Source of the DNA: Acinetobacter radioresistens DSM 6976 = NBRC 102413 = CIP 103788
Lineage (GTDB): Bacteria; Pseudomonadota; Gammaproteobacteria; Pseudomonadales; Moraxellaceae
Length of the DNA: 64,000 nt
Assembly (NCBI RefSeq): GCF_006757745.1
Contig: NZ_AP019740.1
Span: forward strand, 1,302,001-1,366,000
Direction of reading: 5' to 3'
The notes under the pieces were generated by a model. That model made no database searches. It was not told where the DNA came from and worked only from the letters and a program-made list of their open reading frames with translations. Shown here piece by piece: positions 15,269 to 39,341 of this stretch. The translations under genes were made by a program, and so were the position numbers. Each line of letters opens with the position of its first letter. Position 1 is the stretch's first letter.

Positions 15269-16360
15269 ATGGCGGGTAATAGTATTGGGCAACTCTTTCG
15301 TGTAACCACCTGTGGTGAGTCCCATGGAGTTGGCCTCATGGCAATTATAGATGGTGTGCCTCCAGGTATTGAGCTATGTGAAGCAGATTTGCAAAAAGAT
15401 CTCGACCGCCGTAAGCCAGGAACTTCAAAGTTTGCCACCCAACGTAAAGAGCCTGATCAGGTTGAAATTGTTTCGGGCGTCTTTGAGGGTAAAACAACAG
15501 GTACATCGATTGGTTTGCTGATCCGTAACACTGACCAGAAGTCTAAAGACTATGGCAACATTGCTCAAACTTTTCGTCCTGGTCATGCCGATTATACTTA
15601 TACTCATAAGTATGGTTTTCGAGATTATCGGGGCGGTGGGCGTTCTAGCGCACGCGAAACAGCAATGCGTGTGGCTGCCGGTGCAATTGCCAAAAAATAC
15701 TTGGCAGAAAAATTTGGTATTGTGATCCGTGGCCATGTAACCCAGATTGGGCATGAAAAAGCTGAAAAACTGGACTGGAATGAAGTTGCTAATAATCCGT
15801 TTTTTTGTGGTGACATAGAAGCAGTTCCACGTTTCGAGGCGCTGGTAACCTCTTTACGTGAACAGGGAACCAGTTGTGGGGCGAAATTGGAAATTATTGC
15901 TGAGAACGTTCCGGTAGGCTGGGGGGAACCAGTATTTGACCGTTTAGATGCAGATATTGCCCATGCCATGATGAGTATTAATGCTGTAAAAGGTGTTGAA
16001 ATTGGTGATGGTTTTGCCGTAGCTGGACAGTTTGGGCACGAGACTCGTGATGAACTGACTACAGAAGGATTTCTGGCAAACCATGCAGGCGGAATTTTAG
16101 GCGGGATTTCTAGCGGCCAGCATATCCGGGTAGCAATCGCACTAAAACCTACCGCCAGTATTACGACGCCAGGTAAAACGATCAATCTGAACCGTGAAGA
16201 TACCGATGTGCTGACCAAGGGTCGCCATGACCCATGTGTGGGCGTACGTGCAACACCAATTGCAGAAGCAATGCTAGCTATTGTGCTAATGGATCACTAT
16301 CTCAGACATCGTGCACAAAATGCAGATGTGATCCCTCCCTTTAAACCAATTGCCCCATAA
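15269..16360 (+). CDS. aroC: Chorismate synthase
   Basis: Converts EPSP to chorismate, the last common step of the shikimate pathway, using reduced FMN. It has 363 residues. The conserved stretches [50 protein letters not shown] and [16 protein letters not shown] are all seen. It is cotranscribed with prmB (12-bp gap, SD-like AAGGAAG), and a terminator follows. Confidence 0.98.
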
Positions 16361-21381: not shown

Positions 21382-21858
21382 ATGCTTATTCAACTTTGCT
21401 ATGCAAGTGAAAGAATAGAACGCTTAAATAGTGATCTTTTGGAGGATTTAAGTAATATTTTAACTAAATCAAAACTGTTTAATCAGGAACAGCAGATCTT
21501 TGGGGTTCTTTATTATGCTAATGGTTTTTTCTTTCAGTGTCTTGAGGGAGAAAAATCTCAAGTAGAGGCTCTTTTTGTAAAAATACAAGATGATAAGCGG
21601 CATCATAAAATTAAGTTATATAGAACTGTTATTATAGATGAGATTAATTTTAAAAGTTGGTCTATGAAATATGTTGAAAAAAATACTTGTATAGAACGCT
21701 TCTTTCATAAGCGTGGTAAAAAAAAGTTTCAGCCTTTAGAGCTTTTACAAGAGGATATTACTTCCTTGTTAGAGGTATTAATTGATTCTGTAGAGTCGGA
21801 ATTGCCTAAGCGAACAAGACAAGGACTTAAATATCGTGGAGTGAACCGATTTCTATAA
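21382..21858 (+). CDS. BLUF-domain blue-light photoreceptor (BlsA-like), copy 1
   Basis: 158 residues. The N-terminal BLUF flavin domain has Tyr7 (LCYAS), Asn34, Gln52 (FFQCLEGE), and Trp93 and Met95 (WSMKY), close to BlsA Tyr7/Gln51/Trp92. The photocycle residues are therefore intact. The C-terminal part is a short basic helical tail with no output enzyme domain, as in BlsA, which signals by binding a partner. It is the most diverged of the three BLUF proteins here. It lies in AT-rich DNA with no obvious operon partner. Confidence 0.9.
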   Translation: MLIQLCYASERIERLNSDLLEDLSNILTKSKLFNQEQQIFGVLYYANGFFFQCLEGEKSQVEALFVKIQDDKRHHKIKLYRTVIIDEINFKSWSMKYVEKNTCIERFFHKRGKKKFQPLELLQEDITSLLEVLIDSVESELPKRTRQGLKYRGVNRFL

Positions 21859-21950
21859 CTTAGCCCTTCTTAGAGAGAATATATCTATTCTCAACCTAAT
21901 AGTTTAATTTTATAAAGGTTTAATGCACAAAATATTTAATGGTTTTTATT

Positions 21951-21969
21951 GATAATGATTATTAATTAA
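21951..21969 (+). promoter_or_regulatory. Candidate Fur box upstream of esterase gene
   Basis: GATAATGATTATTAATTAA matches the 19-bp Fur consensus at 13 of 19 positions by my count, with a perfect first half-site. It lies 42 bp upstream of the esterase ATG. AT-rich DNA raises the chance of a false match. Confidence 0.45.
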
Positions 21970-22010
21970 AGTAGGGTGGATAATAATTTTTAATCCGCTT
22001 TTTATCAAAT

Positions 22011-22934
22011 ATGGCTAAAATCTTTTTTTTGGGCAAAAAAATCTTAGAAATATTTCTTGTTTTAGGCACGGCTAGTACGGTTGCAATAACTGTTCATGCT
22101 AAACCTGATCTCAAACCCTTAGGTAAAAACATTGCAGATACAGGTTCACAAGTTTATAACTTTCAAATTAAAAAATTCATCTCTAAAGATCAAAAGCGAA
22201 TTTACAAGGTTTGGTTAGGGATTCCTAAGCAAAAAAAGAATCTATCAACTGGAAGTACTGCTATTTTTATGCTGGATGGTAATTCCGTAATGTCCCGCCT
22301 GAATGAACATCTACTTCAAAGTATGGCCGGACAGGATGCACCAGTTTTAGTTGCGATTGGTTATGAGACTAATCTGCCTTTTGACTCTAAGGCGCGTTCC
22401 CTAGACTATACACCTGCAGATGAAACAGGTGAGCTGGCAGCTGACCCTCGAAACCCTGAACGATTGAGTGGTGGAAGTAAGGCATTTCGAAAAATTATTA
22501 TACAAGAAATAGCACCGTGGGCAGAACAGCAGGTCAAATTAGACCCTAAAAGAAAAATACTCTGGGGACATTCATACGGCGGATTATTTGTATTGGACAG
22601 TTTAGTAGCTGGACAGTATTTCAGTCATTACTTTGCGGCAAGTCCTTCGTTATCATGGGCGGATCAACGTATAATGAAAAAATTAAGGAGTACAAAAGAA
22701 CCTTTTGCTGAGTCTAAACAGCTTATACTTATTATGGAAGGAGATATTACTCCTCAAAAAAATCAAAAAGTTAGTCCAAATTTTAACAAAGATATGATTA
22801 TGAATAATCGTGAGCTACTTTCCTATGTACATAGTCAAGGAGTAAGTGCCAAATTAATAATTTATCCGGAATTAAGCCACGGTGAGGTATTTGGGGCATC
22901 ATTAAAGGATATATTACTGAATAAGCTTTTTTAA
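22011..22934 (+). CDS. Exported alpha/beta-hydrolase, Fes/IroE-like esterase
   Basis: 307 residues with an N-terminal signal segment (IFFLGKKILEIFLVLGTASTVAITVHA). The nucleophile elbow GHSYGG and the late His in SHGEVF support a Ser-His-Asp hydrolase. ALDGNSV- and VLVAIGYETN-type stretches resemble the putative esterase family (IroE/BesA-type ferric-siderophore esterases). With a candidate Fur box upstream, periplasmic cleavage of a siderophore is plausible. No siderophore genes are nearby, so the substrate is uncertain. Confidence 0.75.
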   Translation: MAKIFFLGKKILEIFLVLGTASTVAITVHAKPDLKPLGKNIADTGSQVYNFQIKKFISKDQKRIYKVWLGIPKQKKNLSTGSTAIFMLDGNSVMSRLNEHLLQSMAGQDAPVLVAIGYETNLPFDSKARSLDYTPADETGELAADPRNPERLSGGSKAFRKIIIQEIAPWAEQQVKLDPKRKILWGHSYGGLFVLDSLVAGQYFSHYFAASPSLSWADQRIMKKLRSTKEPFAESKQLILIMEGDITPQKNQKVSPNFNKDMIMNNRELLSYVHSQGVSAKLIIYPELSHGEVFGASLKDILLNKLF

Positions 22935-23291
22935 TTTATATGGCTTAATCAATCTAATAGAACTGATTAAGATTTAGTGAAATAATTAATTTTACTTAAA
23001 AGTAATTAATAAAATTTAAAAATTTTTACTAAAAGGTAGACTGGAAAAATATAAAAGGAAGATTTGAAGTCTTTGCTCAAAATTTCTAAGGAGAAAATAT
23101 TGATACTGCTAATTTTAAATACATTATACGGCATTCTATGTATATGAAAGGTCTACCAGCACCCTAAAAATTATCTAGATGGGCATAGCAAAATATATCA
23201 GTTTATTCAAATGCCAGCCCTCTAGAGATTTAAGCCTCAATTAAGCTTAATTATGGCTGAAAAATAAGAAATTCCCAAAAAATAGGGTTAA
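22935..23291. other. AT-rich intergenic region
   Basis: No intact gene is seen. It has an 8-bp inverted repeat CTTAATCA / TGATTAAG just after the esterase, without a T run. A short open stretch near 23100-23160 looks weakly coding but lacks a start and ends at a stop. Confidence 0.5.
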
Positions 23292-23657
23292 TCAACGAAG
23301 TATCTCTATTTTTGCTACGTCGATATCAGTAGGTTTATAGCGGTGGGTGTCTACTTCACCCATTATCCGTATTTTTGTGCCTGGTTTAAGTTGGGAAGGA
23401 GTCGCCAGATCATCATCAATTTCAACATTTATGGTACCGGTTAAATCTTTAAACTCATAATGATCACTCTTAATATGGCGAGTTATTTTTCCAGTCAATG
23501 TAATAGCTGTTTCATCTTTTGCGTTAATTGCCTGAGCCACGGTTACCTTATTTTTAATAGCTGCATTTATAAGTTTTTGATCATTAGTATCTGCAAATAT
23601 TTGAGTAGATAATACGAAAATTAAACCAGTTACTATAATTTTGCCAATTTTTATCAT
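23292..23657 (-). CDS. BOF (YgiW/YdeI) family periplasmic stress protein
   Basis: 121 residues with a signal peptide cleaved after about IFADT, then a small OB-fold domain. ITLTGKITRHIKSDHYEFKDLTGTINVEID is the recognisable family core, and KPGTKIRIMGEVDTH follows. Family members are periplasmic and linked to stress or metal tolerance. It has no co-oriented neighbour. The family call is good; the role is inferred. Confidence 0.88.
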   Translation of the reverse strand: MIKIGKIIVTGLIFVLSTQIFADTNDQKLINAAIKNKVTVAQAINAKDETAITLTGKITRHIKSDHYEFKDLTGTINVEIDDDLATPSQLKPGTKIRIMGEVDTHRYKPTDIDVAKIEILR

Positions 23658-23972
23658 GAATTATTCCTTTCATTATTAAAATAAATTTATAAAAAATTTA
23701 GCTTAAATTTAAAATATCTATATTATTAAATTGTTATTTAATTTATAGGTGGTTGAAGTTAAATAAAATTTAAATTTTTATAAAGATATTAAGATTATAA
23801 TTTTTGATACTTTTAGTAATTTTTAATTTACTTTTAAATTTATAGGATTAATTTGTTTATTGTAAGTATTAATAATTTTAAATAAATTCAGGAGATATCT
23901 TGAAAAAAAATAACCTTAAGCTAAGACTTTAAATCTTTCATATATTTTTATCTACAGGAGAAGAACAAGAAA
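23658..23972. other. AT-rich intergenic region
   Basis: Divergent upstream region of the BOF gene and the SDR gene. Very AT-rich, with no gene, hairpin or clear box seen. Confidence 0.4.
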
Positions 23973-24746
23973 ATGTATCAGTCCCTATTAGATTTATCCG
24001 GCAAAATGGCATTAGTTACAGGCGGAGCCGCAGGCATAGGCCGGGCCTGTGCTTCATTATTAGCTAAAGCAGGAGCTAATGTGATGATAGCTGATCTGAA
24101 TTTAGAGGCTGCTCAACAGACTGCTGAGTACATTAAAGAACAGACAGGAGGTGATATACGCAGTATCGCATGTAATATTCTCAAGGATAGTGAGCTAGTA
24201 GGAGCTGTTGAAAGTACATTAGAAGCATTTGGGCATATCCATATACTGGTCAATAATGCTGGCGGAGGCGGAGGCGGTCATGAAGCGCCTGATCAGATTA
24301 GTCTAGATGATTTTGTTCGTGACTTTCAGCTGAATGTATTTGCTGCTTGGCGTCTCTGTCAACTTGTGGTTCCGCATATGAATATAGCCGGCTACGGTTC
24401 AATAGTTAATATTACTTCTATGAGTTCTGTTAATAAGAGTCCTGCTATGAGCGGCTATGCTGCTTCTAAGGCTGCGTTAAATCATATGGGTGCTAATTTA
24501 GCACATGACTTTGGGCCTATAGTACGCATTAATGCTGTAGGACCAGGGGCTATTCGCACAGCTGCACTGGCAAAAGTTCTCACTCCTGAAATTGAAAAAC
24601 GCATGCTGGCTCATACCCCATTGCAGCGTTTAGGTGAACCTGAAGATATTGCTAAAGCAGTCTTATTCTTTGCTGCTCCTATCTCTTCATGGATCAGTGG
24701 TCAAACCTTATTTGTAAATGGCGGCGGAGTACAAACCCTTGATTAA
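23973..24746 (+). CDS. Short-chain dehydrogenase/reductase, hydroxysteroid dehydrogenase-like
   Basis: 257-residue classical SDR. The NAD-binding TGGAAGIGRA is near the N-terminus. Also seen are NNAGG, the catalytic Ser in NITSMSS, and the YAASK motif (YGYAASKAAL region). The C-terminal QTLFVNGG is typical. It resembles 7-alpha-hydroxysteroid dehydrogenases, but the substrate is not provable. It overlaps or touches the next gene's start, suggesting a two-gene operon with an exported hydrolase. Confidence 0.85.
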   Translation: MYQSLLDLSGKMALVTGGAAGIGRACASLLAKAGANVMIADLNLEAAQQTAEYIKEQTGGDIRSIACNILKDSELVGAVESTLEAFGHIHILVNNAGGGGGGHEAPDQISLDDFVRDFQLNVFAAWRLCQLVVPHMNIAGYGSIVNITSMSSVNKSPAMSGYAASKAALNHMGANLAHDFGPIVRINAVGPGAIRTAALAKVLTPEIEKRMLAHTPLQRLGEPEDIAKAVLFFAAPISSWISGQTLFVNGGGVQTLD

Positions 24747-25941
24747 ATTATCTCATCCTTTAAAATTTCTAATCGCAGCCCTTACCTTTGGCTGTACAAC
24801 TTTAGCTGTTAGCCAAACTAACACTACTGTAGCTTCTAAAAATTATCATATTTCCAGTACTAAACCTGGCACAATTTTATCTGCTCAGGTACAGCAGCCT
24901 GGAGCGGACTATGCACATGCAGGACAACGGTTTCTGATTAATTATCGTAGTCGGGGAGTATATGGGGAGCCTATTGTTGCCTCAGGCTTTATTATTCTCC
25001 CTAAAGGCAAAGCACCAAGACAGGGCTGGCCAGTACTTGCCTGGGCACATGGTACTACAGGGGTTGCAGACACATGTGCACCTTCAGAGGATTATGCAGG
25101 CGGGCCAGTCCATAGTTATCAACAAGTCGCTGATGCTGCTTTAGATACTTGGTTAGCACGCGGTTATGCGATAGTTGCACCTGATTATCAAGGTTTAGGC
25201 ACTCCAGGCGGACATCCTTATATGAATGCTACTAGCCAATTACATACAGTAGTTGATGCAGTGCGTGCACTACATGTTTTAATGCCAGGCCAGATTAACA
25301 AGCAATGGTTAGTAATGGGTCATAGTCAGGGAGGAGCAGCTGCATTAGCGGTAGCTGCATATGGACAAAAAGATGCACCTGAGCTTAATCTGAAGGCGGC
25401 ACTGGCTCTTGCACCAGGCGGATATCAGTATGAGGGTATTGCTGAGTATGCCCAAACTCATCCTAAACCTGACACCAACGTTGCTGCTTTTTTTCCAATA
25501 GTTCTACTCGGCGCTCAAGCTGCTGACCCTGCTATAAATCCTGATAATCTGGTAAGTCCAGAAATGCAGCTTTTACTTGATCAAGGACGTAAACGCTGTC
25601 TGAGTGAAATGCAAACAGAGCTAAAGCAGTCGCCAGATCGTATATTTAAGCCAGAAGCCAATTTAAAACCATTGCTTGATTACCTTAAATTGCAGTCTAT
25701 TGAGCGTATGACTCCTACTGTACCTCTCATGCTTGTACAAGGCACGAATGATCAGCTGGTAGATCCACGCGGAACCTATGCTTATTATCAGCAAGTTTGT
25801 AAAGCTCATAAACCAGTTGTATACCATTCTATTAATGGAGGTGACCACCGAGATGCAGTACGTCAAAGTCCAAATTTTTCAGCAGAGTTTTTAAAGACTC
25901 TCAATAATGGAAAAATACCAACTTCTTGTTCGGCAAAATAA
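24718..25941 (+). CDS. Secreted lipase-like alpha/beta-hydrolase
   Basis: Up to 407 residues. An N-terminal signal (LKFLIAALTFGCTTLAVSQ) leads to an alpha/beta-hydrolase resembling secretory lipases, with the oxyanion region WAHGTTGVADTCAPS, nucleophile elbow GHSQGG, APDYQGLGTPG, and a late Asp/His in VDPRGT and GGDHRDA. ATG 24718 lies inside the upstream SDR gene. A TTG at 24739, preceded by GGCGGAG and overlapping the SDR stop, is an equally good start and gives 400 residues. Translational coupling is likely. Confidence 0.85.
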   Translation: MAAEYKPLIKLSHPLKFLIAALTFGCTTLAVSQTNTTVASKNYHISSTKPGTILSAQVQQPGADYAHAGQRFLINYRSRGVYGEPIVASGFIILPKGKAPRQGWPVLAWAHGTTGVADTCAPSEDYAGGPVHSYQQVADAALDTWLARGYAIVAPDYQGLGTPGGHPYMNATSQLHTVVDAVRALHVLMPGQINKQWLVMGHSQGGAAALAVAAYGQKDAPELNLKAALALAPGGYQYEGIAEYAQTHPKPDTNVAAFFPIVLLGAQAADPAINPDNLVSPEMQLLLDQGRKRCLSEMQTELKQSPDRIFKPEANLKPLLDYLKLQSIERMTPTVPLMLVQGTNDQLVDPRGTYAYYQQVCKAHKPVVYHSINGGDHRDAVRQSPNFSAEFLKTLNNGKIPTSCSAK

Positions 25942-26008
25942 TAGTTAACTTAATAAAAAATTATTTCGAGAGAGATAGTTTGAAATAGTATAATTGTATT
26001 AGTGATGA

Positions 26009-26042
26009 GACACTGAAATTAAGATTATTTCAGTGTCTTTAT
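26009..26042 (+). terminator. Terminator after SDR-hydrolase operon
   Basis: 11-bp stem GACACTGAAAT (26009-26019) / ATTTCAGTGTC (26027-26037) followed by T-rich sequence. Confidence 0.82.
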
Positions 26043-26339
26043 AATAATTGGGAATTAAAAATATATTCTAATAGAATATATTTTATTAAATTAAGAGGAT
26101 TTAAATTCCCGAGCTTGAGTATGGAATCTCTAACCTATAAAAATAATTTTAAGTAATTTATGTAAATAAGCAACTTTATAAATTTAATAAATATAAGGCC
26201 TTATTTTTAAGGAGTATAATTTTAAATTACATTTATATTATTTGATACATTCTTGGAATATATATTTAAAAGAAAGGTGTATGTTAATAGAACTAGATAG
26301 GAATCTAGCCACTCTATTAAGATTATGAGGAATTTTAAA
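26043..26339. other. AT-rich leader upstream of Q/N-rich gene
   Basis: No gene seen. A palindromic TATTCTAATAGAATATA lies near 26061-26080. GATTATGAGGAATTTT just before the next gene supplies its SD. Confidence 0.4.
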
Positions 26340-26564
26340 ATGTCAAATCAACAAAATCAGCAAAATGATCAACAACATCAACAGGGCCAACAGAATCAGC
26401 AAAGTGGTCAACAAGGTCAGCAGAGCAGTCAACAAGGCCAGCAGAATCAGCAAAATGATCAACAACGCCAGCAGGGTCAGCAGAGCAATAATGACCAGCA
26501 GAATCAGCAAAATGATCAGCAGCGTCAACAGAATGATCAAAATCAGAATGATCAGCATATGTAA
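26340..26564 (+). CDS. Low-complexity Gln/Asn-rich repeat protein (74 aa)
   Basis: 74 residues built almost only from Q, N, G, D, S, with a few H and R, in imperfect repeats of NQQNDQQ / QGQQ / SQQGQQ units. No Cys, aromatic or hydrophobic core is present, so it must be disordered, and the composition is prion-like. ATG 26340 has GAGG about nine bases upstream. An in-frame ATG at 26325 overlaps that SD. A terminator follows, which supports a real transcription unit. No function is inferred. Confidence 0.75.
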   Translation: MSNQQNQQNDQQHQQGQQNQQSGQQGQQSSQQGQQNQQNDQQRQQGQQSNNDQQNQQNDQQRQQNDQNQNDQHM

Positions 26565-26598
26565 TAGTAAATATCGGCAAGCTGAACTCTTGCCTGTT

Positions 26599-26632
26599 AA
26601 AAAAGCCCTCTCTTAAAGTCTGGGCTTTTTTA
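26599..26632 (+). terminator. Terminator after Q/N-rich gene
   Basis: Stem AAAAAGCCC (26600-26608) / GGGCTTTTT (26622-26630) with a T run. Confidence 0.85.
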
Positions 26633-26817
26633 TTTTAATATAAAAAATTATTTAACTATAATTACTAAAACAATCTTAACTTAAACTTCTTAATGTTTTA
26701 GCCTGAAATAATTAAAACTTTAGTTTTATAAAAACAAATCTATTAACTAATGTTACGTTTTTACATCTTTTTTAAAAATACTAGTATTTAAAATAATTAA
26801 AAATTTTTATTGAAAAG

Positions 26818-27396
26818 ATGATTATAATGAAAAAGAAGTTAATAGAGAGTAGCAGGAAATCTTATAAATTATGGTTTAACTCTATGTCTGATGAGGAAAG
26901 AGAAGAATTAAGTGCAATAGGTATACAATGCAGAGCCGATGCTCAATTTTTTAAACAGGAAATTTTAGATATTCATAGTCACTTAAATAATCCCAAGTTA
27001 AAAGAGAATAGACTATTATTCAATAAATTTATTAATAGATTTCTTGCACTTATTCCAAAAAATATCCATTCTTATATTGATAGGGAATCTTTAGAAGCAG
27101 ACTCTGATTATCGGGCTTGGCTAATTAATCGGCAAATGTTTGTATTTAACTATCTTATTGCAAAAAGTAATTTCGATTTAAGTAAAGGTGAGAACTATAG
27201 TCATATTTTATGGTCTCCTGTGATTGATAGTGCTACTCCTCAACAATGTTATGACTTCAATAATAAAATTTTTAAAATTACTGATATAGAATTTCAAAGA
27301 TCAGCTACAGAACACTGGAGTAAACCAAAAAAAGGCTGTAAATGTAGTTTGATATCTATAAATAATCGTCAAGCTGAAAAATATATAAGTTTATAG
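26818..27396 (+). CDS. Hypothetical protein with possible phage head-morphogenesis-like tail
   Basis: 192 residues, not firmly recognised. The C-terminal part (DSATPQQCYDFNNKIFKI ... KPKKGCKCSLISI) resembles the Cys-x-Cys ending of Mu gpF/SPP1 gp7-type domains (Cys, Gly-Lys-Val-Phe, then Pro-Lys/His and CxCxL). The N-terminal 120 residues are helical and charged. It is isolated, with no phage genes around it, so a domesticated or stranded phage gene is one reading. Start ATG 26818 or the in-frame ATG three codons later. Confidence 0.55.
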   Translation: MIIMKKKLIESSRKSYKLWFNSMSDEEREELSAIGIQCRADAQFFKQEILDIHSHLNNPKLKENRLLFNKFINRFLALIPKNIHSYIDRESLEADSDYRAWLINRQMFVFNYLIAKSNFDLSKGENYSHILWSPVIDSATPQQCYDFNNKIFKITDIEFQRSATEHWSKPKKGCKCSLISINNRQAEKYISL

Positions 27397-27899
27397 ATTA
27401 CAAGATAGGCTAATAAAATTTGCAGATGGTCCTGATATATTTTATCTTATAGACTCTAACTAAAAGTATATTATTATTTAGTACTCGTAAAATATAAAAA
27501 TAGAGTAAGAATAAAATAATTATCTTTACGTAGGTATTGCATTATCCATATGGAGCACCTCATATCTCTAAACTCTCAACATTAGCAAGTAACTTTAAGT
27601 ACTTCTGTACCAGAGGCATTCGAAGAAATGATTTCGTTATTATTTTAGTAAAATACCAGATTAGATACATAAATTTTAAGTCATCTTCGTGGTCTCTTTC
27701 AGAAAACGCGGTAGTTCAAACAGCGGGTGTTTTAATTAAGCCTGTTAAGGTTTATATAAGAAAATTTTATATGAGACTTCGAATATCTTTAGAAGAAGTA
27801 GTTCATTAAAACCATAGAGTCTTTAGCGAATCAAAGATAAAAAGCCACTCAATTACTCAATATTTGTTCATATATAGTAGTAAATATTTCTTATGATAC
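27397..27899. other. AT-rich region without a confident gene
   Basis: An open frame of about 90 codons (27537-27809, plus) begins at TTG without a clear SD and has no recognisable features. A stretch near 27680-27730 is unusually GC-rich for its surroundings. I do not call a gene here. Confidence 0.35.
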
Positions 27900-28310
27900 A
27901 TTTTTTGGATTATCATCAGGCTTCATTAAAAAGGTTAACTGTTGAAAGTAAAAATAGTTTTTTGTTAATTTGGTTCCATAGTTCTTCAAATAGTGTGCTA
28001 TGACATTGCTGTTGTAGAGAGCTAATGAGTATTATTCTTTATGGTTTAACTTTGCATAAAGCTTGCAAGATCCTTAGCGTATTGATTTATGTTACGACTT
28101 TCCCAAAATCGGGAAGAATGATCATGATAGCCGTAGCTAGATGTAAGAAAACTATAGGTTGCCGGATAAGCCGTTTCACTTTTAAATGCATGATGACAAA
28201 ATGGCCAACGATGTAACAGGCCAATAGGTGTGTCTTCATCTTAATCTTCATAAGAAAGATAAGTAGCATCACTGATGTTAATAGAGTTGTGGTTCATCAT
28301 TTGTTCATAC
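27900..28310 (-). pseudogene. Decayed coding sequence of unknown family
   Basis: On the minus strand, two frames read like protein but are broken. One contains SYED, an in-frame TAA, then DEDTPIGLLHRWPF and ends ...YAKDLASFMQS. The following one, in another frame, ends LTFLMKPDDNPKNVS. One in-frame stop and a frame change lie between these parts. Together they look like the C-terminal half of a lost gene. I cannot name the family. Confidence 0.45.
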
Positions 28311-28388
28311 AGGAAAAAGATAATTTATATAAGGTCGGTTTTTAAAGTTTTCTATGTGGGTTTTTATATGTCTGGTTTGGAGGTGAAC

Positions 28389-28832
28389 GTGAGTGATGTA
28401 AGATTGTTGTATGTAAGTAAGTTAAAAGACTGTGCCAATCCAATGAATGAATTATTCAACATTCTTACAGAAGCATTAGATTTTAATAACCCTAATCAAA
28501 TTTATGGAGCCCTTTACTACGGTAATAATTATTTTGTTCAGTGTCTTGAAGGAAACAAAGAAAAAGTAGAACATTTATTTTATAATAAAATTTTAAGAGA
28601 CATACGTCATGAACAATGTGAAATTATGTCTTTTGAGAATATAAATGAACGTTTATTTTCAAATTGGCATATGAAATATGCAATTTTCCATAAGGATATA
28701 TTAAGATTTTTTTGTGAACATCACCTTGATGAGTTTAATCCATATTTACTTAATACTGGAACTATACCTAATTTTATAGATCTTCTAGCTAAACAGCCAG
28801 ATAGCTACTATAGCTTAAAGCAAAACTGCTAA
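28389..28832 (+). CDS. BLUF-domain blue-light photoreceptor (BlsA-like), copy 2
   Basis: 147 residues from a GTG at 28389, chosen because a strong SD (GGAGG, 28379-28383) sits five bases upstream. An ATG at 28368 would place that SD inside the gene. BLUF residues Tyr8 (LLYVS), Asn33/34, Gln51 (FVQCLEG), Trp93 and Met95 (WHMKY) are all present. By hand count it is identical to copy 3 at 66 of the first 100 residues, so the two are recent paralogues. It is a stand-alone domain; output must be through a partner. Confidence 0.9.
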   Translation: MSDVRLLYVSKLKDCANPMNELFNILTEALDFNNPNQIYGALYYGNNYFVQCLEGNKEKVEHLFYNKILRDIRHEQCEIMSFENINERLFSNWHMKYAIFHKDILRFFCEHHLDEFNPYLLNTGTIPNFIDLLAKQPDSYYSLKQNC

Positions 28833-28840
28833 CAGCAAAT

Positions 28841-28871
28841 AGACTATATAGCTTTAGAAGCTATATAGTCT
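28841..28871. repeat. 14-bp perfect hairpin after BLUF copy 2
   Basis: Arms AGACTATATAGCTT (28841-28854) and AAGCTATATAGTCT (28858-28871), loop TAG, no T run. It may act as a 3' end stabiliser or weak terminator. Confidence 0.7.
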
Positions 28872-29038
28872 AACAACTTGTATTAAAAAATAAGCTATAA
28901 AATATTTATAACTAGAAGATTATATTAAATATATTTATGTCGATAAAAATAATATTAAAACTTACAATATGCTTACCAGATTTTGAATAAGATAATGTTA
29001 TAAATAAATTCTTCTAATGATATTAGGTTCTAAAGTTT

Positions 29039-29347
29039 TTGATAAAGCATCATGAAAATTTCTGTCCAGACTTATATGATTACCTTTATAGCCAGACTTT
29101 AAAGGCATATAAACCTGTAAAGTCGAAAGAACGAAATAAGATTTTATTCTTGGCTAAAGTCATAGAAGTTTTTTCAAACCTAGAAGCGATAGACTATGAT
29201 TTAGAAATTGGAGCTATTAGTATAACATTAGAAATTAATCTTAAGTTCTATACCTTTTGGAGTGTAGAGATGCCGAGGATTGAAAATAAAACACAATTTG
29301 TAAAATACCTTGGCTCTCAACTGGAAAATATTTTTTTAAAAACTTAA
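29039..29347 (+). CDS. Hypothetical protein (102 aa), TTG start
   Basis: Unrecognised. It starts at TTG 29039 because an in-frame stop lies just upstream (29024-29026) and no ATG is available near the 5' end. The SD is poor. It has a helical, charged sequence and lies between two BLUF genes. The weak start makes it possible that this is a remnant. Confidence 0.45.
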   Translation: MIKHHENFCPDLYDYLYSQTLKAYKPVKSKERNKILFLAKVIEVFSNLEAIDYDLEIGAISITLEINLKFYTFWSVEMPRIENKTQFVKYLGSQLENIFLKT

Positions 29348-29481
29348 ATAATGAGTTTTTATATTTAATTATATAGCATCATTATTCCCTGTTAAATTAA
29401 CAAACATTAACATAAAAATTTATTTTAGATCAACTGATTATTAAACTAAATGAATTTATAAAAATTAATTTTTTGAGGTTA

Positions 29482-29922
29482 CTATTTTAACCTTAGAGTA
29501 CTAATACCGTCTTTTTGTTTAGCCAGTAAATTAATAAAAGGAGAGATAGTATGGTTCGTTAATAAATAAGGATTAAAAGCTTCTAGATGATGATCTTTAA
29601 AAAAGTGCATGACTTCCTTGTTAAAAGCTGCATATTTCATATGCCAATTTGCAAATAGGCGACTTTTGATCGGTTCAAAGTAAATAACTTCACATTGCTC
29701 ATGTCGAGGATCTCTAATGATTTTTTTATAAAAAAGATGCTCAAGCTTATCTCTTTCGCCTTCAAGACATTGTACGAAGTATCCATTTCCAAAATATAAT
29801 GCTCCATAAATCTCATGGGGACTATTATATGTTATAGCTTCTGTAAGTATATCCATTAAATCTTTAACGGCATTTTTATTTTTTTTAAGCTTACTTACGT
29901 ATAGCAGCCTCACCAGATTCAT
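29482..29922 (-). CDS. BLUF-domain blue-light photoreceptor (BlsA-like), copy 3
   Basis: 146 residues. Tyr8 (LLYVS), Asn33, Gln51 (FVQCLEG), Trp93 and Met95 (WHMKY) are in place. The paralogue on the opposite strand is almost the same length (147). It ends with a short helical tail (HHLEAFNPYLLTNHTISPFINLLAKQ) like copy 2, also without an output domain. The next gene on the same strand, about 400 bp upstream, is a diguanylate cyclase, which is a plausible but unproven signalling partner. Confidence 0.92.
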   Translation of the reverse strand: MNLVRLLYVSKLKKNKNAVKDLMDILTEAITYNSPHEIYGALYFGNGYFVQCLEGERDKLEHLFYKKIIRDPRHEQCEVIYFEPIKSRLFANWHMKYAAFNKEVMHFFKDHHLEAFNPYLLTNHTISPFINLLAKQKDGISTLRLK

Positions 29923-30319
29923 ATATATTTGCTCAAGGTAATGATTTTAGTTCCTCGGTTTATTTTATAGAATTTTTAATAAAAAAATAGTTATTTCAAC
30001 AAGTTGCATAAAATCCAAAAATCGGTTTTTAAAAATTAAATTTATAAAAAACAAAGAGTTAATTTTTTAATCAGGTTTTAAATAACTTGTTTTTTTGTAT
30101 GAAAAATGTGATAACCCTATGATATTTTTAATTTTATATAATAATTTTTATTTTATAGTTTTAAGGGGATGGTACAATATATTTAGATAAAAACAAAACA
30201 TTAGTCTCTTATATTGATATAAGGTCAGCATTTTACTTTACATTTAAATATTATATAATTTTATTAAATGAAATAATTAAATACTTATTATACAGATTAT
30301 TTCTGTCGTTTTATTATAA
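29923..30319. other. AT-rich intergenic region
   Basis: About 400 bp between BLUF copy 3 and the diguanylate cyclase gene. Very AT-rich; no gene or hairpin with a T run is seen. Confidence 0.4.
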
Positions 30320-31902
30320 TTAGCTATATTTAATCTGATTACGGCCATTGTTCTTTACATAGTAAAGATTATTATCAGCAATCTTTAAAACTTGTGCAAA
30401 TTCTTCTGCACTGTCTGGCCAAGATGCGATACCTATAGAAATGGTAATTCTACCTACATTATTAATTTCAAATGCTTCTACAATACGTCGAAATCTCTCT
30501 GCACTTTCATAAATTTCCTGCTTATTATTATTTGGAATAACCACAATAAACTCTTCACCTCCGTAACGACAGCACAGATCTTCTTTACGAAAATTTTCCT
30601 GTATAAGTTTCGCTAGAATTTTTAATACCTCATCTCCTATATCATGGCCATAAGTATCATTAACGCGTTTGAAACGGTCTATATCTATAAGTAATATAGA
30701 AAAATGTATATCAGAATCTATCATTTCTTTAACAAAAATTTCCATACCTCTACGGTTAAAGAGTTGAGTAAGGGCGTCAGAATTAATATGAAAGTTCATT
30801 TCATCAATTTTACTGCTAAATTTTTCAATACTAGAAAGTAATAAAAATTTGAATTTTTGTACTTCGTAATACCATGGCTTAATTTTCTTAATTTTCTTAA
30901 TTTTTGTTTTAGTCTCAGGTTGATTCAAAGCACTCGCCATCTTGGCAAGCTCATGGAGAGGTGAGGCTATAAAAGCAGATGCTCTCCAGACAATATAGAA
31001 AATTAATAGATAAAATATAAAGATTACACCACTTAATCTAAAAATAATTGATTTGGTTTCATCAATTAAATCGGCCAATGGTTCTTGTGAAACAACAATC
31101 CATCCGGTTGTAGGTATGTAGGCGAAACCAGCTATATATTTTGTTCCTATATCATTGATTAATTCAGTTTTTCCACTTTTTCTATACTCTATAGAGGCCA
31201 TACTACTATTCTGGGCTACGAGACCCCCGATTTTTTTCCTATTCGGATCAAATACAATTTTTCCATTTCTATCAATGATATAGATATTGTTATTTTTATA
31301 GTTATATTCCAGTGGCAGTAATTCATTAATCATGTTAGTTTCTTTTAAATGAATTAAAGTGCCTACATACCCCTTATAGATATGTTTATTATCAAAGATT
31401 GGCTGTGAGATAAAGATTACCAAATTATTTCTGACTGAATAATAGGGCGGTGAGATATAAGCATGCTTACTTCGTAAAGATCCCTGAACTCCCAGTGAGG
31501 TAGACACTTGTCTTTGATCAAGATTAAGCTGCTTTAATGTGTATTCAGTAACCGATCCTTGGCTATTACCTATAATTAAAGTGTCAAAGTGATGAGAAAG
31601 ATTTTTAAGTCGCTCAACTTCATGTTCTTTAAATGTACGCTGATCAAAGCCCTGACCTATTATATCTGCGCTGTATTTCAGTTCGTTTAAAGTAACTTGA
31701 AGTTTCCTGTCAGTATTCGAAGCAATTTTAGAAGCATATTCATAGTTGAGAAAAGTGATTTCTTGACTAATTCTTTCTTAAAAAGGATATAACTTGCTAC
31801 TAAGGAGATAACAAATAAAAATGAGACTGCTAAAGCAGTTAAAATTAGAATTAATTTTCTTAAATTAAGTTTAAAAATTTTTCTTTGGTAAGTATTTGGC
31901 AT
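30320..31902 (-). pseudogene. Frameshifted membrane diguanylate cyclase (CACHE-like sensor plus GGDEF)
   Basis: Minus-strand gene that would encode about 527 residues but has a one-base frame change near 31778. The N-terminal part (from ATG 31902) has a transmembrane helix (LILILTALAVSFLFVISLVASYILF) and then leaves frame. The main frame continues as ERISQEITFLNYEYASKIASN and runs through a periplasmic CACHE-like sensor, a second transmembrane helix (about 31055-30955) and a GGDEF domain. The A-site is GGEEF and the I-site RKED lies five residues before it, so catalysis and product inhibition look intact. The GTG/ATG region at 31507 could start a shorter product. A sequencing error could also explain the shift. 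Confidence 0.8.
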
Positions 31903-32201
31903 GCCAGAAAGTTAGCCAGCTATTAATTCTATTAAATATACACTACGATATGAGTATCCAGGTAGTAATTTGTTTTTGTAAATTCTATCACAAGAGTAAA
32001 AAAATTATATAAATAGATAATTAAAATGAATCATTTTTTACTTAAATATATATGTAGTTTACAGGAGAAAAGATAAATTTTATATATTTTCAAAGACAAA
32101 TTTTTATACGTATTTATAACATTTGTACTATATAAGTAGAAAGAATTAGTAATTTATATCTTCTATAATAACGAACTAGGTAATGAAAAGTTAGGAAAAA
32201 T

Positions 32202-32330
32202 ATGAAAAATTTAACTATAACTGGTGTTATTTTAGCTGTAACTCTTAGTCTAACTGCTTGTGCGAACAAGAAAGAAGAAAGTGATAAAAACCAACCTGAG
32301 TCTCCTCATACATTAGAGCAGGATTCATAA
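32202..32330 (+). CDS. Small lipoprotein (42 aa)
   Basis: 42 residues. Signal peptide with lipobox LTAC, then a short charged tail ending TLEQDS. ATG 32202 has AGGAAAA upstream. A 13-nt stretch (TAGAGCAGGATTC) at its 3' end recurs in the gene at 32688. Confidence 0.65.
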   Translation: MKNLTITGVILAVTLSLTACANKKEESDKNQPESPHTLEQDS

Positions 32331-32454
32331 AAATTTATTTATGAAGTTAAGTAAATTATCAAAATATCTATTTTAGTTAATAGTAGCTCATTTATTAAAT
32401 ATTAGAGTTTATTTAAAAAATAGACTACTTAATTTATATGTAGGCTCTTGTTAG

Positions 32455-32610
32455 ATGAATTTATTTTTCATGATTTTGGGTCTAATTTTATTATGTGTTC
32501 TGTATGTTTTAATAAATATAGAGCTTTTTAGAAAGAAGAGCAAAAATGAATCCTATAACAATAGATATCCAAAAGATAATAATTCTGCGTCAGATAATAA
32601 TTCAACCTAA
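32455..32610 (+). CDS. Small single-pass membrane protein (51 aa)
   Basis: 51 residues: a hydrophobic helix (LFFMILGLILLCVLYVLINI) followed by a Lys/Asn/Ser-rich polar tail. It is in the same orientation as the two neighbours, so a small co-transcribed group is possible. Not recognised. Confidence 0.55.
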   Translation: MNLFFMILGLILLCVLYVLINIELFRKKSKNESYNNRYPKDNNSASDNNST

Positions 32611-32687
32611 TACGAATAACAAAATATTTAATATATTAACCTCTAAGCTTTAAAAGTAAGTTATACGTTAACAACAGAGTAATTATT

Positions 32688-32981
32688 ATGCTTTATGTAA
32701 TCTCTGGTTCAATTATATTACTCTTAATTTTTATAGGCTATAAAAAATTTAGGCATCGAAAAATTAAAAGTTTACGCTACTGCGAACCAATTAAAAACTC
32801 ATTTCATGAAATTACTTGTAGTTATCATTATATAAGCACCCTAGAGCAGGATTCCTCATCAAAGCATACAGAATATACAGGGAATAATGGTTCATTTAGT
32901 GGAGGTGGAGCTACTGGCTCTTGGGGTAATACTAATAACGATACATCTTCAAGCTCTGATGGTAGTAGTTCGAATGACTAG
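32688..32981 (+). CDS. Membrane protein with Ser/Gly/Asn-rich tail (97 aa)
   Basis: 97 residues. An N-terminal helix (MLYVISGSIILLLIFIGY) precedes a polar region with two cysteines and a low-complexity C-terminus (GGGATGSWGNTNNDTSSSS). It shares TLEQDS with the small lipoprotein 360 bp upstream. Not recognised. Confidence 0.6.
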   Translation: MLYVISGSIILLLIFIGYKKFRHRKIKSLRYCEPIKNSFHEITCSYHYISTLEQDSSSKHTEYTGNNGSFSGGGATGSWGNTNNDTSSSSDGSSSND

Positions 32982-33067
32982 TTAATTCTACAAACGAACT
33001 ATATATATTTATTGATTATAAGAATACTTTTTTGTTAGGGTTGTTTTTTTGAAGAAGGGTAGTAAAG

Positions 33068-33376
33068 ATGATGAAAAAAATTACTTATTTAGCTTTAACG
33101 CTGGTAGCTACAGGATTAACTGCTTGTGCAAACTCTCCAGAAAATGGAGTATCCAATAATACTAATATGGGTCAGGCTCAGTGTCTTCCGGCAGAAGCTA
33201 AAAAACTGGTTGGACATACTGGTTTAAGTGATGAGCAAATTAAACAGAAAACTGGTTCTAAAATTGTTCGCACTCTCACTCCTAATCAGCCAGCTACGAT
33301 GGACTATCGTATTGAGCGCATTACAGTAATTATAGATCCTGTAACTAACCAGATTAAAGATGCTTCATGTGGTTAA
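33068..33376 (+). CDS. Peptidase-inhibitor I78-like lipoprotein
   Basis: 102 residues. Lipobox LTAC leads into CLPAEAKKLVGHTG and KIVRTLTPNQPATMDYRIERITVIID, ending with DASCG. That pattern matches the I78 serine-protease inhibitor family (elastase or subtilisin inhibitor type). It is probably anchored to the envelope and protects against host or competing proteases. ATG 33068 or 33071. A terminator follows. Confidence 0.8.
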   Translation: MMKKITYLALTLVATGLTACANSPENGVSNNTNMGQAQCLPAEAKKLVGHTGLSDEQIKQKTGSKIVRTLTPNQPATMDYRIERITVIIDPVTNQIKDASCG

Positions 33377-33490
33377 AGAGTTTAAATCATAACTACAATA
33401 TAGTTACATCTTGTGGGTAGTATGTTTTTTGATTAAAAAAGAGTCTACTACAGGGATGAAGATTTATTAAGTTTACTCTATGAATATGCA

Positions 33491-33522
33491 AAAAAAGCTT
33501 GTCATTTGACAAGCTTTTTTTA
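33491..33522 (+). terminator. Terminator after I78 gene
   Basis: 13-bp stem AAAAAAGCTTGTC / GACAAGCTTTTTT with ATTT loop and T run. Confidence 0.88.
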
Positions 33523-33630
33523 TATACATCCTTTTACATGAGGTACAGAAAGTAAGAGAAAATGGGTTGGAAGGCTACATATTAAGATGATAGTTTTATA
33601 TTCAGTCAGTTAAATAATTTGAGGTGAGCA

Positions 33631-33771
33631 ATGAAATTGTTGACTTTATTTGGTATGAGTATGGCAGTTAGCTATTGCTATAAAAATTTAAAACATAATA
33701 AGCTAAACTTTTCACAAGCTAATTTTGATGAAACTATTAAACAGTTTATATTAAGGGATTTTCATAGTTAA
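33631..33771 (+). CDS. Hypothetical small protein (46 aa)
   Basis: 46 residues. A short hydrophobic start (MKLLTLFGMSMAVSYCY), then a charged tail. GAGGTGAG just upstream is a strong SD and a terminator follows, which supports expression. Unrecognised. Confidence 0.55.
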   Translation: MKLLTLFGMSMAVSYCYKNLKHNKLNFSQANFDETIKQFILRDFHS

Positions 33772-33805
33772 AGTAACTAATAAAACTCATATGTGAATAC
33801 AATTT

Positions 33806-33835
33806 AAAAAGCTCATTGAAAGATGAGCTTTTTAA
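33806..33835 (+). terminator. Terminator after 46-aa gene
   Basis: Stem AAAAAGCTCAT / ATGAGCTTTTT around TGAAAG. Confidence 0.85.
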
Positions 33836-33838
33836 TTG

Positions 33839-34176
33839 TCTATAATATATTAAAATATTAATATAATAATGCTAAAAAAGACATCTAAATTTCTAGCTTA
33901 TTATTCATTTTTTAATACAAGAGACCTGGGACCTGTTTCTTAGTTAAAAATAGTTTAATATCCATTGAGCAAATAAAGTCACTTTTAGTTTTTTCAATCC
34001 AGACATTAGGCTGCATAAAGTTAAATCAAGATATATTAAAAACCATAAAATTTTTAATTAATTCTAGTTAAAACAATGAACTTTCAATATATATTTGAAT
34101 CTAATAAAGAGTAAATTCATCTTTTAGTCATAAAAATAGAAGAAAATTGAGTCTTAACTTTTTGAGTAGCTCAATT
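33839..34176. other. Intergenic region with a possible coding fragment
   Basis: Largely AT-rich. On the minus strand, 33912-34016 reads MQPNVWIEKTKSDF... for 34 residues without an SD. It looks like a remnant rather than a gene. Confidence 0.35.
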
Positions 34177-34413
34177 ATGCCAAATATCAATGTTAAAAAT
34201 CTAGACAATATGCTTGCTAGAATTAAGGAAGAAAATCAGTCGCCAGAAAAAATATTGATTGGTTATAAGGCTTATGGGGAATTAATGAATGATAGAGCCT
34301 TTTTTGAAGAGGTAGCAGGCTCTGCTATAGACCCTAATAAAAGAAGATATAAAAAGATTAAAATTAAAGTTACTCAAGATGAGTATCAGATTGAAGTAAA
34401 GTGTAAGAACTAA
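34177..34413 (+). CDS. Hypothetical protein (78 aa)
   Basis: Unrecognised, charged and helical (MPNINVKNLDNMLARIKEEN...). ATG 34177 is preferred over an in-frame TTG ten codons upstream. No clear neighbour link. Confidence 0.5.
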   Translation: MPNINVKNLDNMLARIKEENQSPEKILIGYKAYGELMNDRAFFEEVAGSAIDPNKRRYKKIKIKVTQDEYQIEVKCKN

Positions 34414-36470: not shown

Positions 36471-36959
36471 ATGAAAAAACTATATCTTACAGCTCTTATT
36501 ACACTTTGTTCAGGTTGGGTATGGGCAGAACAGCAACCAGTATCAACATCTTCTGCGCAAACTGAAGCCCAGTCAGAAAAATTATCTGCTAATACGATCC
36601 GTATTTTTACTCGTCCTGAAATTATGGGTCTATGGGGCATGGAAATTCCTAACAATAAAAAATGTGTAGAATATTATAATTTTCGAAATGACAATGAAGT
36701 AATGATTAAAAGTGGTCAAGAGTGGTCGTATGCACTTTATGATTATCAACCTTCAGATGACTTAAAAGACAAGTTGCCTGCGTTAATCATGCAGGTAAGA
36801 TACGATAATAATCAGACGGATTGCTCTGGTCGACGAGAAGACCAGACGGGTGAGATTTCTCAGTACTTTGTCCAATGGAAAAATACTCATACGATCAATT
36901 TTTGTGCTACAGAAAAAGGGCAGGAGTGTTTTGCTACATTAAAGCGAATTTTGCCTTAA
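36471..36959 (+). CDS. Hypothetical exported protein (162 aa)
   Basis: Unrecognised. A signal peptide MKKLYLTALITLCSGWVWA precedes the mature protein, which has four cysteines (KKCVEY, TDCSGR, NFCATEKGQECF) that could form disulfides. It is monocistronic, ending in a shared terminator with accC. Confidence 0.7.
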   Translation: MKKLYLTALITLCSGWVWAEQQPVSTSSAQTEAQSEKLSANTIRIFTRPEIMGLWGMEIPNNKKCVEYYNFRNDNEVMIKSGQEWSYALYDYQPSDDLKDKLPALIMQVRYDNNQTDCSGRREDQTGEISQYFVQWKNTHTINFCATEKGQECFATLKRILP

Positions 36960-37013
36960 ACTTCTTTGTACTATTTAACTTTAGTTTTCATAAACCATAA
37001 AAAATCAGGTAAT

Positions 37014-37043
37014 AAAAAGCCTCTTGAATCAAAAGGCTTTTTT
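37014..37043. terminator. Bidirectional-looking terminator
   Basis: Stem AAAAAGCCT (37014-37022) / AGGCTTTTT (37034-37042). A and T tracts on both sides suit both converging genes. Confidence 0.85.
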
Positions 37044-37057
37044 ATCATGATACATCA

Positions 37058-38431
37058 CTAGCTGGCTTTGGTGGCCTCTTGCTGACCTTCAAGCTGTTTA
37101 AGTAAATGCTTTTCCAGATAGTGAATATCCATAGCTTGGCTACAGAAATTCTTATCTTGTAAAATAAGATCTTTATGCAATGGAATATTGGTTTTAATTC
37201 CAGAAAGAATCATTTCATCTAGTGCCTGTTTCATCCGGGCAATTGCAGTTTCACGATCTTTACCGTGTGAAATCAGCTTGGCAATCATAGAGTCATAATA
37301 AGGTGGAATACTGTAGCCTGGATATATGTGTGAATCTAAGCGGATACCTGCGCCACCTGGAGCATAAAATTGCTCGATTTTACCTGGTGACGGCATAAAG
37401 GTTGAAGGATCTTCTGCATTGATTCGACATTCGATTGCATGGCCGCGTACTTTAATATCTTCCTGTTGAAGATCAAGCCCGATACCTGCTGCAATACGCA
37501 ACTGCTGTTCAATAATATCTACACCCGTTACCATTTCAGTCACCGGATGTTCAACCTGAACTCGCGTATTCATTTCAATAAAGAAGAACTCACCATCTTC
37601 AAATAAAAACTCGAATGTTCCTGCGCCACGGTATTGCATTAATTTGCAAGCATTCACACATGCTTCAAGAATATCTGCACGTGCCTGTTCTGGCAGAAAT
37701 GGTGCAGGTGCTTCTTCTAGAACTTTCTGATGACGGCGCTGTAAAGAGCAGTCACGGTCATAAAGATGAATGGCATGACCATTGCCATCACCCAAAATCT
37801 GAACTTCTACATGACGAGGTTTTTGCAGAAAACGCTCCATATAAACCGTGTCATCACCAAACCACATTTCAGCATCACGCTGGGCAGCTTGGACAGATTC
37901 AAGCAGAGTGTCTACACGCTCGACAATACGCATACCACGGCCACCACCGCCTGAGGCAGCTTTAACAATCAGCGGAAAACCGATTTCTTTTGCTTCAGCA
38001 AGAGCATTATTGGTCGTTACAGCATGAGCTGAACCAGGTACGGTCGGTACACCAGATTTTTTCATCGCCATGATTGCTGAAACTTTATTACCCATCAGGC
38101 GAATATGTTCAGGACGTGGACCAATAAAAATGAATCCTGAACTTTCTACGATTTCTGCAAATTCAGCATTTTCAGATAAAAAACCATAACCCGGATGAAT
38201 TGCATCTGCACCGGTAATCTCTGCTGCTGTAATAATAGCCGGAATATTTAGATAGCTTTCACTGCTGGTACCAGGCCCTATACATACTGCTTCATCACAA
38301 AAGCGTAGATGCATCAGATCCTTGTCGGCATCGGAATAAATACCAACGGTTTTAATTCCTAAAGTTTTACAAGCCCGGGTGATGCGCAAGGCAATCTCAC
38401 CTCGGTTTGCAATTAAAACTTTCTGCAACAT
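37058..38431 (-). CDS. accC: Acetyl-CoA carboxylase biotin carboxylase subunit
   Basis: Biotin carboxylase of 457 residues that carboxylates the biotin on AccB using ATP and bicarbonate, the first step of fatty-acid synthesis. The ATP-grasp region has [14 protein letters not shown] and the active-site [14 protein letters not shown]. It begins [17 protein letters not shown]. accB lies 15 bp upstream in the same operon, with aroQ before it. Confidence 0.97.
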
Positions 38432-38446
38432 ATGAATCCCCGGGTA

Positions 38447-38866
38447 TTAAGCGCGATAGCGGAATAATGGTTGACCAAACTGGATGACTTCACCATTTTT
38501 GACCAGAATTTCTTCAATTACACCGCTTTGAGTGGCTTCAATCGGATTCATGATTTTCATTGCTTCAATAATACCTAACGTATCACCGGCAGAAACAGTC
38601 TGGCCAATTTTAACAAATGGCGCTTCACCTGGGCTTGGTGCTGCATAGAACACGCCGACCATTGGAGACGTTTCTACTGCACCACGTGGTGCTTTAGCTG
38701 CAGGGGCTGATGCAGCTGGAGTTGGCATCGCAGGAGTAGCCGCCGCTGCAACGACCGGCATACGGCGTGTCAGGGCGATAGACTGATCGCCTTCTTTGAC
38801 TTCAATCGCCTGCAGGTCGGATTCAATCATCAAGTCGATGAGTTTCTTGGTTTTGCGGATATCCAT
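38447..38866 (-). CDS. accB: Biotin carboxyl carrier protein
   Basis: 139 residues. The Ala/Pro-rich linker (AAAATPAMPTPAASAPAAKAP) joins an N-terminal helix pair to the biotinyl domain. The biotin-accepting Lys104 lies in EAMKIMNPIEA. It is the carrier between AccC and the carboxyltransferase. It lies between aroQ and accC. Confidence 0.97.
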   Translation of the reverse strand: MDIRKTKKLIDLMIESDLQAIEVKEGDQSIALTRRMPVVAAAATPAMPTPAASAPAAKAPRGAVETSPMVGVFYAAPSPGEAPFVKIGQTVSAGDTLGIIEAMKIMNPIEATQSGVIEEILVKNGEVIQFGQPLFRYRA

Positions 38867-38882
38867 GGATGAGTCTTCCTAA

Positions 38883-39341
38883 TTATGATTGGTGAGAAGA
38901 GGGTTTAATTTTTTCGATCGCATAGTCCAGAGCAAAATGATAGCCTTTTGCTCCTAAACCACAGATCACACCGACTGCTTTGTCGGATAAATAAGAATGA
39001 TGACGAAAAGTTTCGCGGGCATGCACATTAGAAAGATGGACTTCAATATAAGGAAGCGCAACGCCAAGCAAGGCATCGCGTAAAGCTACTGAAGTGTGCG
39101 TCAGTGCAGCAGGGTTGATAATAATAAACTGTGTACCATCATCTTGAGCCTGATGAATCCGGTCAACAATTGCACCTTCCCAATTGCTTTGAAAAGTATT
39201 CAGAGAAAATCCTGCTTTTTGAGCATGTAAAGTCAGACTTTGATTGATATCCTGAAGGCTAAGACGACCATATACTTCCGGTTCACGTTTACCTAGCAAA
39301 TTTAAATTCGGTCCATGAATAACCAAAATGGTTGAACTCAT
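38883..39341 (-). CDS. aroQ: Type II 3-dehydroquinate dehydratase
   Basis: 152-residue class II dehydroquinase. It converts 3-dehydroquinate to 3-dehydroshikimate in the pathway that AroC finishes. [32 protein letters not shown] and [20 protein letters not shown] are seen. The common GAYTHT motif reads AALTHT. It is the first gene of aroQ-accB-accC. Confidence 0.95.

Follow-up and report, generated by a model that had tools for sequence, protein, structure and literature searches.

Three short BLUF photoreceptor genes lie close together in Acinetobacter radioresistens, beside a diguanylate cyclase gene that is probably a chance neighbour

Introduction

The BLUF protein BlsA of Acinetobacter baumannii binds Fur in the dark and AcoN in blue light, antagonising each of them (PMC6712483), and changes to either of two C-terminal lysines, K144 or K145, alter light-regulated motility whilst flavin binding is little affected (PMC6695109). 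In another species of the genus, A. radioresistens, four BLUF genes in strain SH164 and six in strain SK8 were reported in 2013, all encoding proteins that are short like others of the genus, and neither motility nor biofilm formation was detectably photoregulated in strains of this species (PMC3554667). In this article, we analyse a 64,000-nucleotide stretch of the genome of A. radioresistens DSM 6976 (contig NZ_AP019740.1, positions 1,302,001–1,366,000; hereafter the window), in which three short BLUF genes, termed copies 1, 2 and 3, lie close to a gene for a Cache-GGDEF diguanylate cyclase. The explanation that we favour as a whole, with a probability of roughly 0.7, is that these genes encode short BLUF proteins that retain the photocycle residues, that they were brought together by lateral gain and an old duplication, that their products act through separate regulators and that the GGDEF gene beside them is unrelated to their function.

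That strains of A. radioresistens carry several short BLUF genes (four to six per strain) is already published. The window resembles the SH164 and SK8 sets in species, in the shortness of all the proteins and in there being several per genome, and neither the three-gene cluster nor its flanks are mentioned in the text portions of that paper that were examined (PMC3554667). The A. baylyi genes ACIAD1499, 2110, 2125 and 2129 are also comparable: three of the four lie within 20 kb of each other in a genome (G007) that we take to be of this species, and one group of these genes falls within the same clade as copies 2 and 3, but their spacing is different and the 20-kb stretch that holds them (L199) contains no GGDEF open reading frame (ORF). 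According to a title in a reference list, three A. baylyi BLUF proteins act additively on twitching motility. A. nosocomialis likewise has three short BLUF proteins encoded in one genome (AnBLUF65, AnBLUF46 and AnBLUF85), although in different contexts, and AnBLUF85 is reported to be identical among A. nosocomialis, plasmids and two A. radioresistens strains (PMC9020721).

Copy 2 shares 65% and 61% identity with the BLUF proteins of the A. lwoffii plasmids pAVAci119 and pAVAci116, respectively; the corresponding values for P0083, which is the database twin of copy 3, are 55% and 58%. Both plasmid proteins have kept the light-site residues, but their genes are carried by small plasmids that are mobilizable and encode relaxase and RepM, and not by the chromosome. 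Finally, BlrP1 and the photoactivated adenylyl cyclases share the same light-sensing domain but have their output domain in the same protein, whereas the window copies have none fused to them.

Three BLUF proteins and their light-site residues

All three genes are found where the original prediction had placed them, and the Pfam BLUF (PF04940) scores of their products (Table 1) far exceed the curated cut-off of 25 bits. The reading frame of copy 2 is open from 28275, but the GTG at 28389 is taken as its likely start because it is preceded by GGAG. Across the whole genome there are four BLUF matches, the fourth being at contig position 1118715, around 200 kb from the cluster.

In a 175-row alignment of BLUF domains that includes BlsA, the residues Y7, N33, Q51, H73, W92 and M94 (BlsA numbering) are kept in copies 1–3 and in the fourth gene; tyrosine, glutamine, tryptophan and methionine are jointly kept in 158 of the 175 rows. 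The asparagine, glutamine, tryptophan and methionine of copy 3 also align to residues 45, 63, 104 and 106 of AppA, counted from the printed start. These alignments bear out the earlier claim that the flavin-site Tyr, Asn, Gln, Trp and Met are conserved in each copy. The claim, made at the same time, that no output domain is fused to these proteins is also upheld: no further Pfam domain scores above its cut-off in any of the three proteins, the only other match (Prp3_C in copy 3) lying below its own. No NCBIfam match was obtained for the three proteins.

Structures matched by sequence comprise PDB entry 6w6z, Tll0078, AppA, Slr1694 and the photoactivated adenylyl cyclases. Entry 6w6z is labelled simply as a BLUF domain-containing protein, and we take it to be BlsA. 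Copy 1 aligns to it over residues 2–157 (E 2.8e-40) and, like BlsA, is short and without an output domain; copies 2 and 3 align over most of their length (E about 1e-22) with the same photocycle residues. In a tree of BLUF domains, however, none of the window copies falls in the BlsA clade, so that none is identified by this means as a BlsA orthologue. Copy 1, on a long branch, belongs to a group of 23 rows (support 92) that stands apart from that of BlsA, and copies 2 and 3 are placed far off. The tree rests on few columns and has many weak forks; rows of loci L100–L154, identical domains and domains shorter than 90 residues were left out of it. At the positions of K144 and K145, copy 1 has threonine and arginine in what is a loose alignment, but it retains the RGVN-F tail of BlsA, which is absent from copies 2 and 3. 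The best reading of the three genes is that they encode ordinary BlsA-type short photoreceptors, each predicted to bind flavin adenine dinucleotide.

BLUF clustering across the genus

BLUF matches are present in 136 of the 175 Acinetobacter genomes that were searched and absent from the other 39, and 73 genomes carry more than one. For 127 of the 136 BLUF-bearing genomes, positions were available. At least two BLUF genes occur within 10 kb of each other in 18 of the 175, mostly as tandem pairs with 200–330 bases between the domain matches. This number is what remains of 20 after removal of G124 and G161, in each of which two overlapping fragments of one gene had been matched; it includes G005, although the second match in that genome leaves only a 63-amino acid ORF after filtering. 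Three BLUF genes within 10 kb are seen in the window's genome only (1/175), and three within 20 kb also in G007, with the proviso that incomplete assemblies can hide such clusters. The grouping of the three genes within 9 kb, as first noted, is therefore tighter than would be expected of scattered genes. It is not a tandem array, however: copy 1 stands apart and copies 2 and 3 are convergent.

A separate observation concerns six Acinetobacter genomes in which a BLUF-like gene with histidine in place of the photoactive glutamine lies directly beside an intact BLUF gene (L204 10253–10699, L211 9596–10021, L232 9485–9958, L246 2070–2576, L247 2172–2696 and L248 2047–2520). Such an arrangement could possibly represent a paired sensor with a light-insensitive partner. 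A 441-amino acid double-BLUF ORF of Alkanindiges illinoisensis (L097) also has histidine for the photoactive glutamine.

The neighbouring diguanylate cyclase gene

The diguanylate cyclase gene beside copy 3 encodes a complete GGDEF domain (Pfam 154.4 bits), with GGEEF at the A-site and an RxxD I-site five residues before it. The gene as a whole is broken. When it is compared with the continuous relative P0001, the first 51 residues are in one frame and the remainder in another, and no single frame spans both the N-terminal hydrophobic segment and the Cache domain. In the ORF that is left, the first hydrophobic segment is missing, as is roughly half of the Cache domain (positions 114–239 of the 240 in dCache_1 are covered). 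Continuous relatives (P0001, which stands for 128 sequences, and P0002) are 524 amino acids long, and the ORF is 97% identical to P0001, a protein named as being from A. radioresistens; the frame change is either a strain variant or an assembly error. The original prediction had described a membrane GGDEF gene with intact A- and I-sites, and had noted the frame change: the sites and the frame change are both there, but the gene is not whole.

Three paralogues of the cyclase, with 60%, 60% and 53% identity, are encoded in the same genome (making four close paralogues in all), which has 14 GGDEF matches in its 3.43 Mb. Three of these are found within 6 kb of each other (G000 contig C1 1388445–1394234, locus L218), at a distance of around 58 kb from the BLUF cluster; an internal stop interrupts one, and another encodes a 60% paralogue of the window cyclase.

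It had been proposed that blue light could feed cyclic di-GMP signalling through the neighbouring cyclase, and that gene order in other Acinetobacter genomes be compared. That comparison lends the proposal no support. Homologues of the cyclase (E ≤ 1e-60) are encoded in 64 of the 175 genus genomes, but amongst the 45 of these with BLUF positions listed, only the window's genome has the two genes within 60 kb, the next-nearest distances being 65 kb (G049) and 86 kb (G142). A profile built from 82 relatives of the cyclase found no GGDEF ORF near BLUF in any of 38 stretches of 15–20 kb from other genomes of the genus. Among 78 other named loci, a GGDEF ORF is present within about 10 kb of BLUF in three (L092, L093 and L120), the first two of which are from Moraxellaceae and have identical layouts; L111, with two GGDEF ORFs, and L133 are not counted, as their BLUF genes were missed by the ORF filter. 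With 14 matches in 3.43 Mb, a GGDEF gene is expected by chance in around 8% of 20-kb stretches, so three loci in 78 is no more than chance, and an adjacency such as that in the window is what chance would give now and then. The cyclase is, therefore, likely to be a chance neighbour of the BLUF genes and not their partner, and a light-controlled cyclase as a conserved module was rejected, since the neighbourhood is not repeated.

An alternative is control of the cyclase by at least one of the BLUF proteins, exerted by direct contact (perhaps in trans) or through transcription, at least in strains with an unbroken cyclase gene. Copy 3 and the cyclase gene share a strand and are about 400 bases apart, the GGDEF domain retains both its sites, continuous relatives exist in A. 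radioresistens, and L092/L093 and L120 show a comparable proximity. With the pair so rarely found together, and with the N-terminus out of frame in the window, we consider a light-to-cyclic di-GMP module of this kind very improbable. Cache domains sense small molecules by themselves, which also counts against it. Among the titles and abstract openings of the literature that was looked at, none describes a BLUF–cyclase pair in Acinetobacter.

Surroundings and origin of the three copies

Copies 2 and 3 belong to a single 12-row clade (support 99) that also contains genes from A. albensis, A. soli, A. baylyi and A. variabilis, with copy 3 branching first. A recent tandem duplication as the source of copies 2 and 3 was rejected on the basis of this tree and of their mutual identity of 61%. 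Given that identity, and with copy 1 elsewhere in the tree, the three copies are not explained by a single recent duplication. All three are found in an interval between the core genes aroC and accC (Table 1), which includes a stretch of low GC (guanine plus cytosine) content and three ORFs of phage families; the GC content of the flanks of copies 2 and 3 (0.277 and 0.275) is below that of the lowest other BLUF flank (0.300). With relatives of copy 2 on mobilizable A. lwoffii plasmids (61–65% identical), we consider it likely that the BLUF copies piled up in this low-GC interval by lateral gain together with an old duplication.

Table 1. Features of the window discussed in the text, with positions counted from its first nucleotide
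Feature	Position	Strand	Details
BLUF copy 1	21382-21858	+	158 aa; BlsA-like C-terminal tail; Pfam BLUF 91.5 bits
BLUF copy 2	28389-28832	+	147 aa from GTG at 28389; Pfam BLUF 84.7 bits (scored from 28368)
BLUF copy 3	29482-29922	-	146 aa; convergent with copy 2; Pfam BLUF 88.6 bits
Cache-GGDEF diguanylate cyclase gene	30320-31902	-	Frame change near 31,750; 395-aa ORF left at 30320-31507
aroC (chorismate synthase), left core flank	15269-16360	+	PF01264 451.6 bits; match in 174/175 genus genomes
accC (biotin carboxylase), right core flank	37058-38431	-	Biotin carboxylase domains; match in 175/175 genus genomes
Phage-family ORF, unknown function, upstream of copy 2	26818-27396	+	phrog_17297, E 1.8e-54; no Pfam match
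Phage-family ORF, unknown function, between copies 2 and 3	29039-29347	+	phrog_38421, E 1.1e-7
Phage-family ORF, unknown function, beyond cyclase	34147-34413	+	phrog_3631, E 9.8e-31
Low-GC stretch with copies 2 and 3 and cyclase	26000-34000		GC 0.279; window outside the aroC-accC interval 0.394
Inverted repeat, 15 pairs, right after copy 2	28840-28872		Terminator-like by pattern alone

An alternative would be that an old BLUF neighbourhood near aroC is ancestral and survives whole only in the window, its copies having been lost or moved in other species. Read by eye among the matches listed, aroC and accC lie within 40 kb of each other, at distances of 6–38 kb, in at least ten genomes, and in two of those ten, again among the matches listed, a BLUF gene is found between them: the window's genome and G030 (for G004, another of the ten, the BLUF position is not listed). 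The presence of a BLUF gene at this place in G030 is what an ancestral neighbourhood would leave behind, as is the trio within 20 kb in G007, and in at least 15 genomes (by eye among the matches listed; for example G025, G074, G089 and G132) a BLUF gene of the copy-2/3 type is found at a distance of 12 to about 20 kb from aroC. In all 15, however, it is upstream of aroC, whilst the window copies are downstream, and in the tree, the closest relative of copy 1 is a gene other than that of G030. BLUF genes are lacking altogether from 39 of the 175 genomes and vary in number among strains of one species (PMC3554667). An ancestral neighbourhood is therefore unlikely.

Lateral gain with an old duplication accounts better for these observations, and can be extended, though only tentatively: the lineage of copies 2 and 3 may be a light-sensing cargo that moves on plasmids or phage-derived DNA, with the aroC–accC interval of A. 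radioresistens as a landing site where three copies piled up, which would make the blue-light response an accessory, strain-variable trait. We offer this as a possibility that is rather more likely to be wrong than right.

Among the gene families listed, none recurs beside BLUF in most of the 38 other stretches, and those that do recur come mainly from places shared by related genomes. Two BLUF surroundings agree in part with the window. Counterparts of the window's SDR and lipase genes (23973–25941) occur near the BLUF gene of G049 (L203), with 79% and 62% identity, and the genes on the accC side (36471–39341) are also found near BLUF genes of G071 and G077 (L214 and L215). Between 26335 and 26616, the window contains a short repetitive stretch that is open on both strands, with HFADSAG/VDHFADS-like repeats on the minus strand. 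Three terminator-like sites were found against 1.1 expected; promoter-like sites numbered 26 against 26.6 expected and were not used.

How the light signal might be passed on

By analogy with BlsA, blue light would rearrange the Tyr-Gln-Trp network around the flavin, following which the variable C-terminus would bind or release transcription regulators. Each BLUF protein would, in this way, pass on the light signal by contact with separate regulators. Because copies 2 and 3 are without the BlsA-like tail that copy 1 keeps, copy 1 on the one hand and copies 2 and 3 on the other may well have different partners.

Several points weigh against parts of the explanation that we favour. Flavin binding, photocycle and partners of the copies are all predictions. 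Motility plates of A. nosocomialis showed expression of just one of its three BLUF proteins, AnBLUF65 (PMC9020721), so it should not be assumed that all three window copies are expressed. With regard to lateral gain, BLUF genes commonly have a low GC content (the mean of 51 such genes in other stretches is 0.332, and that of their 2.5-kb flanks 0.359), and the flank of copy 1, at 0.318, is not below the lowest of the other BLUF flanks. Among the window's proteins that were scanned, no integrase, transposase or plasmid gene was identified beside the copies, and the PHROG families of the nearby ORFs carry no known function. Finally, copies 2 and 3 fall in large protein clusters, of 91 and 52 sequences, and so are not rare, strain-specific genes.

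Some of these points might instead be taken to mean that the copies are decaying, disused remnants of gene gain, as the broken cyclase next to them suggests. The single BLUF protein expressed in A. nosocomialis (PMC9020721) and the lack of detectable photoregulation in A. radioresistens (PMC3554667) would fit such a state. All three frames are full length, however, with every checked residue kept, and copies 2 and 3 sit at full length within their large clusters. Decay of the BLUF genes themselves is, on this evidence, improbable, and functional short photoreceptors remain the preferred reading.

Perspectives

The window brings together three divergent BLUF receptors of one organism as a compact natural set, and the link between light and cyclic di-GMP, tempting from adjacency alone, has been removed. 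Should the piling-up of the copies prove to be the result of lateral gain, light sensing in Acinetobacter would be in part an accessory trait. This could help to explain why the number of BLUF genes differs from strain to strain, and also why species rich in BLUF genes did not respond to light when motility and biofilm formation were tested in published work.

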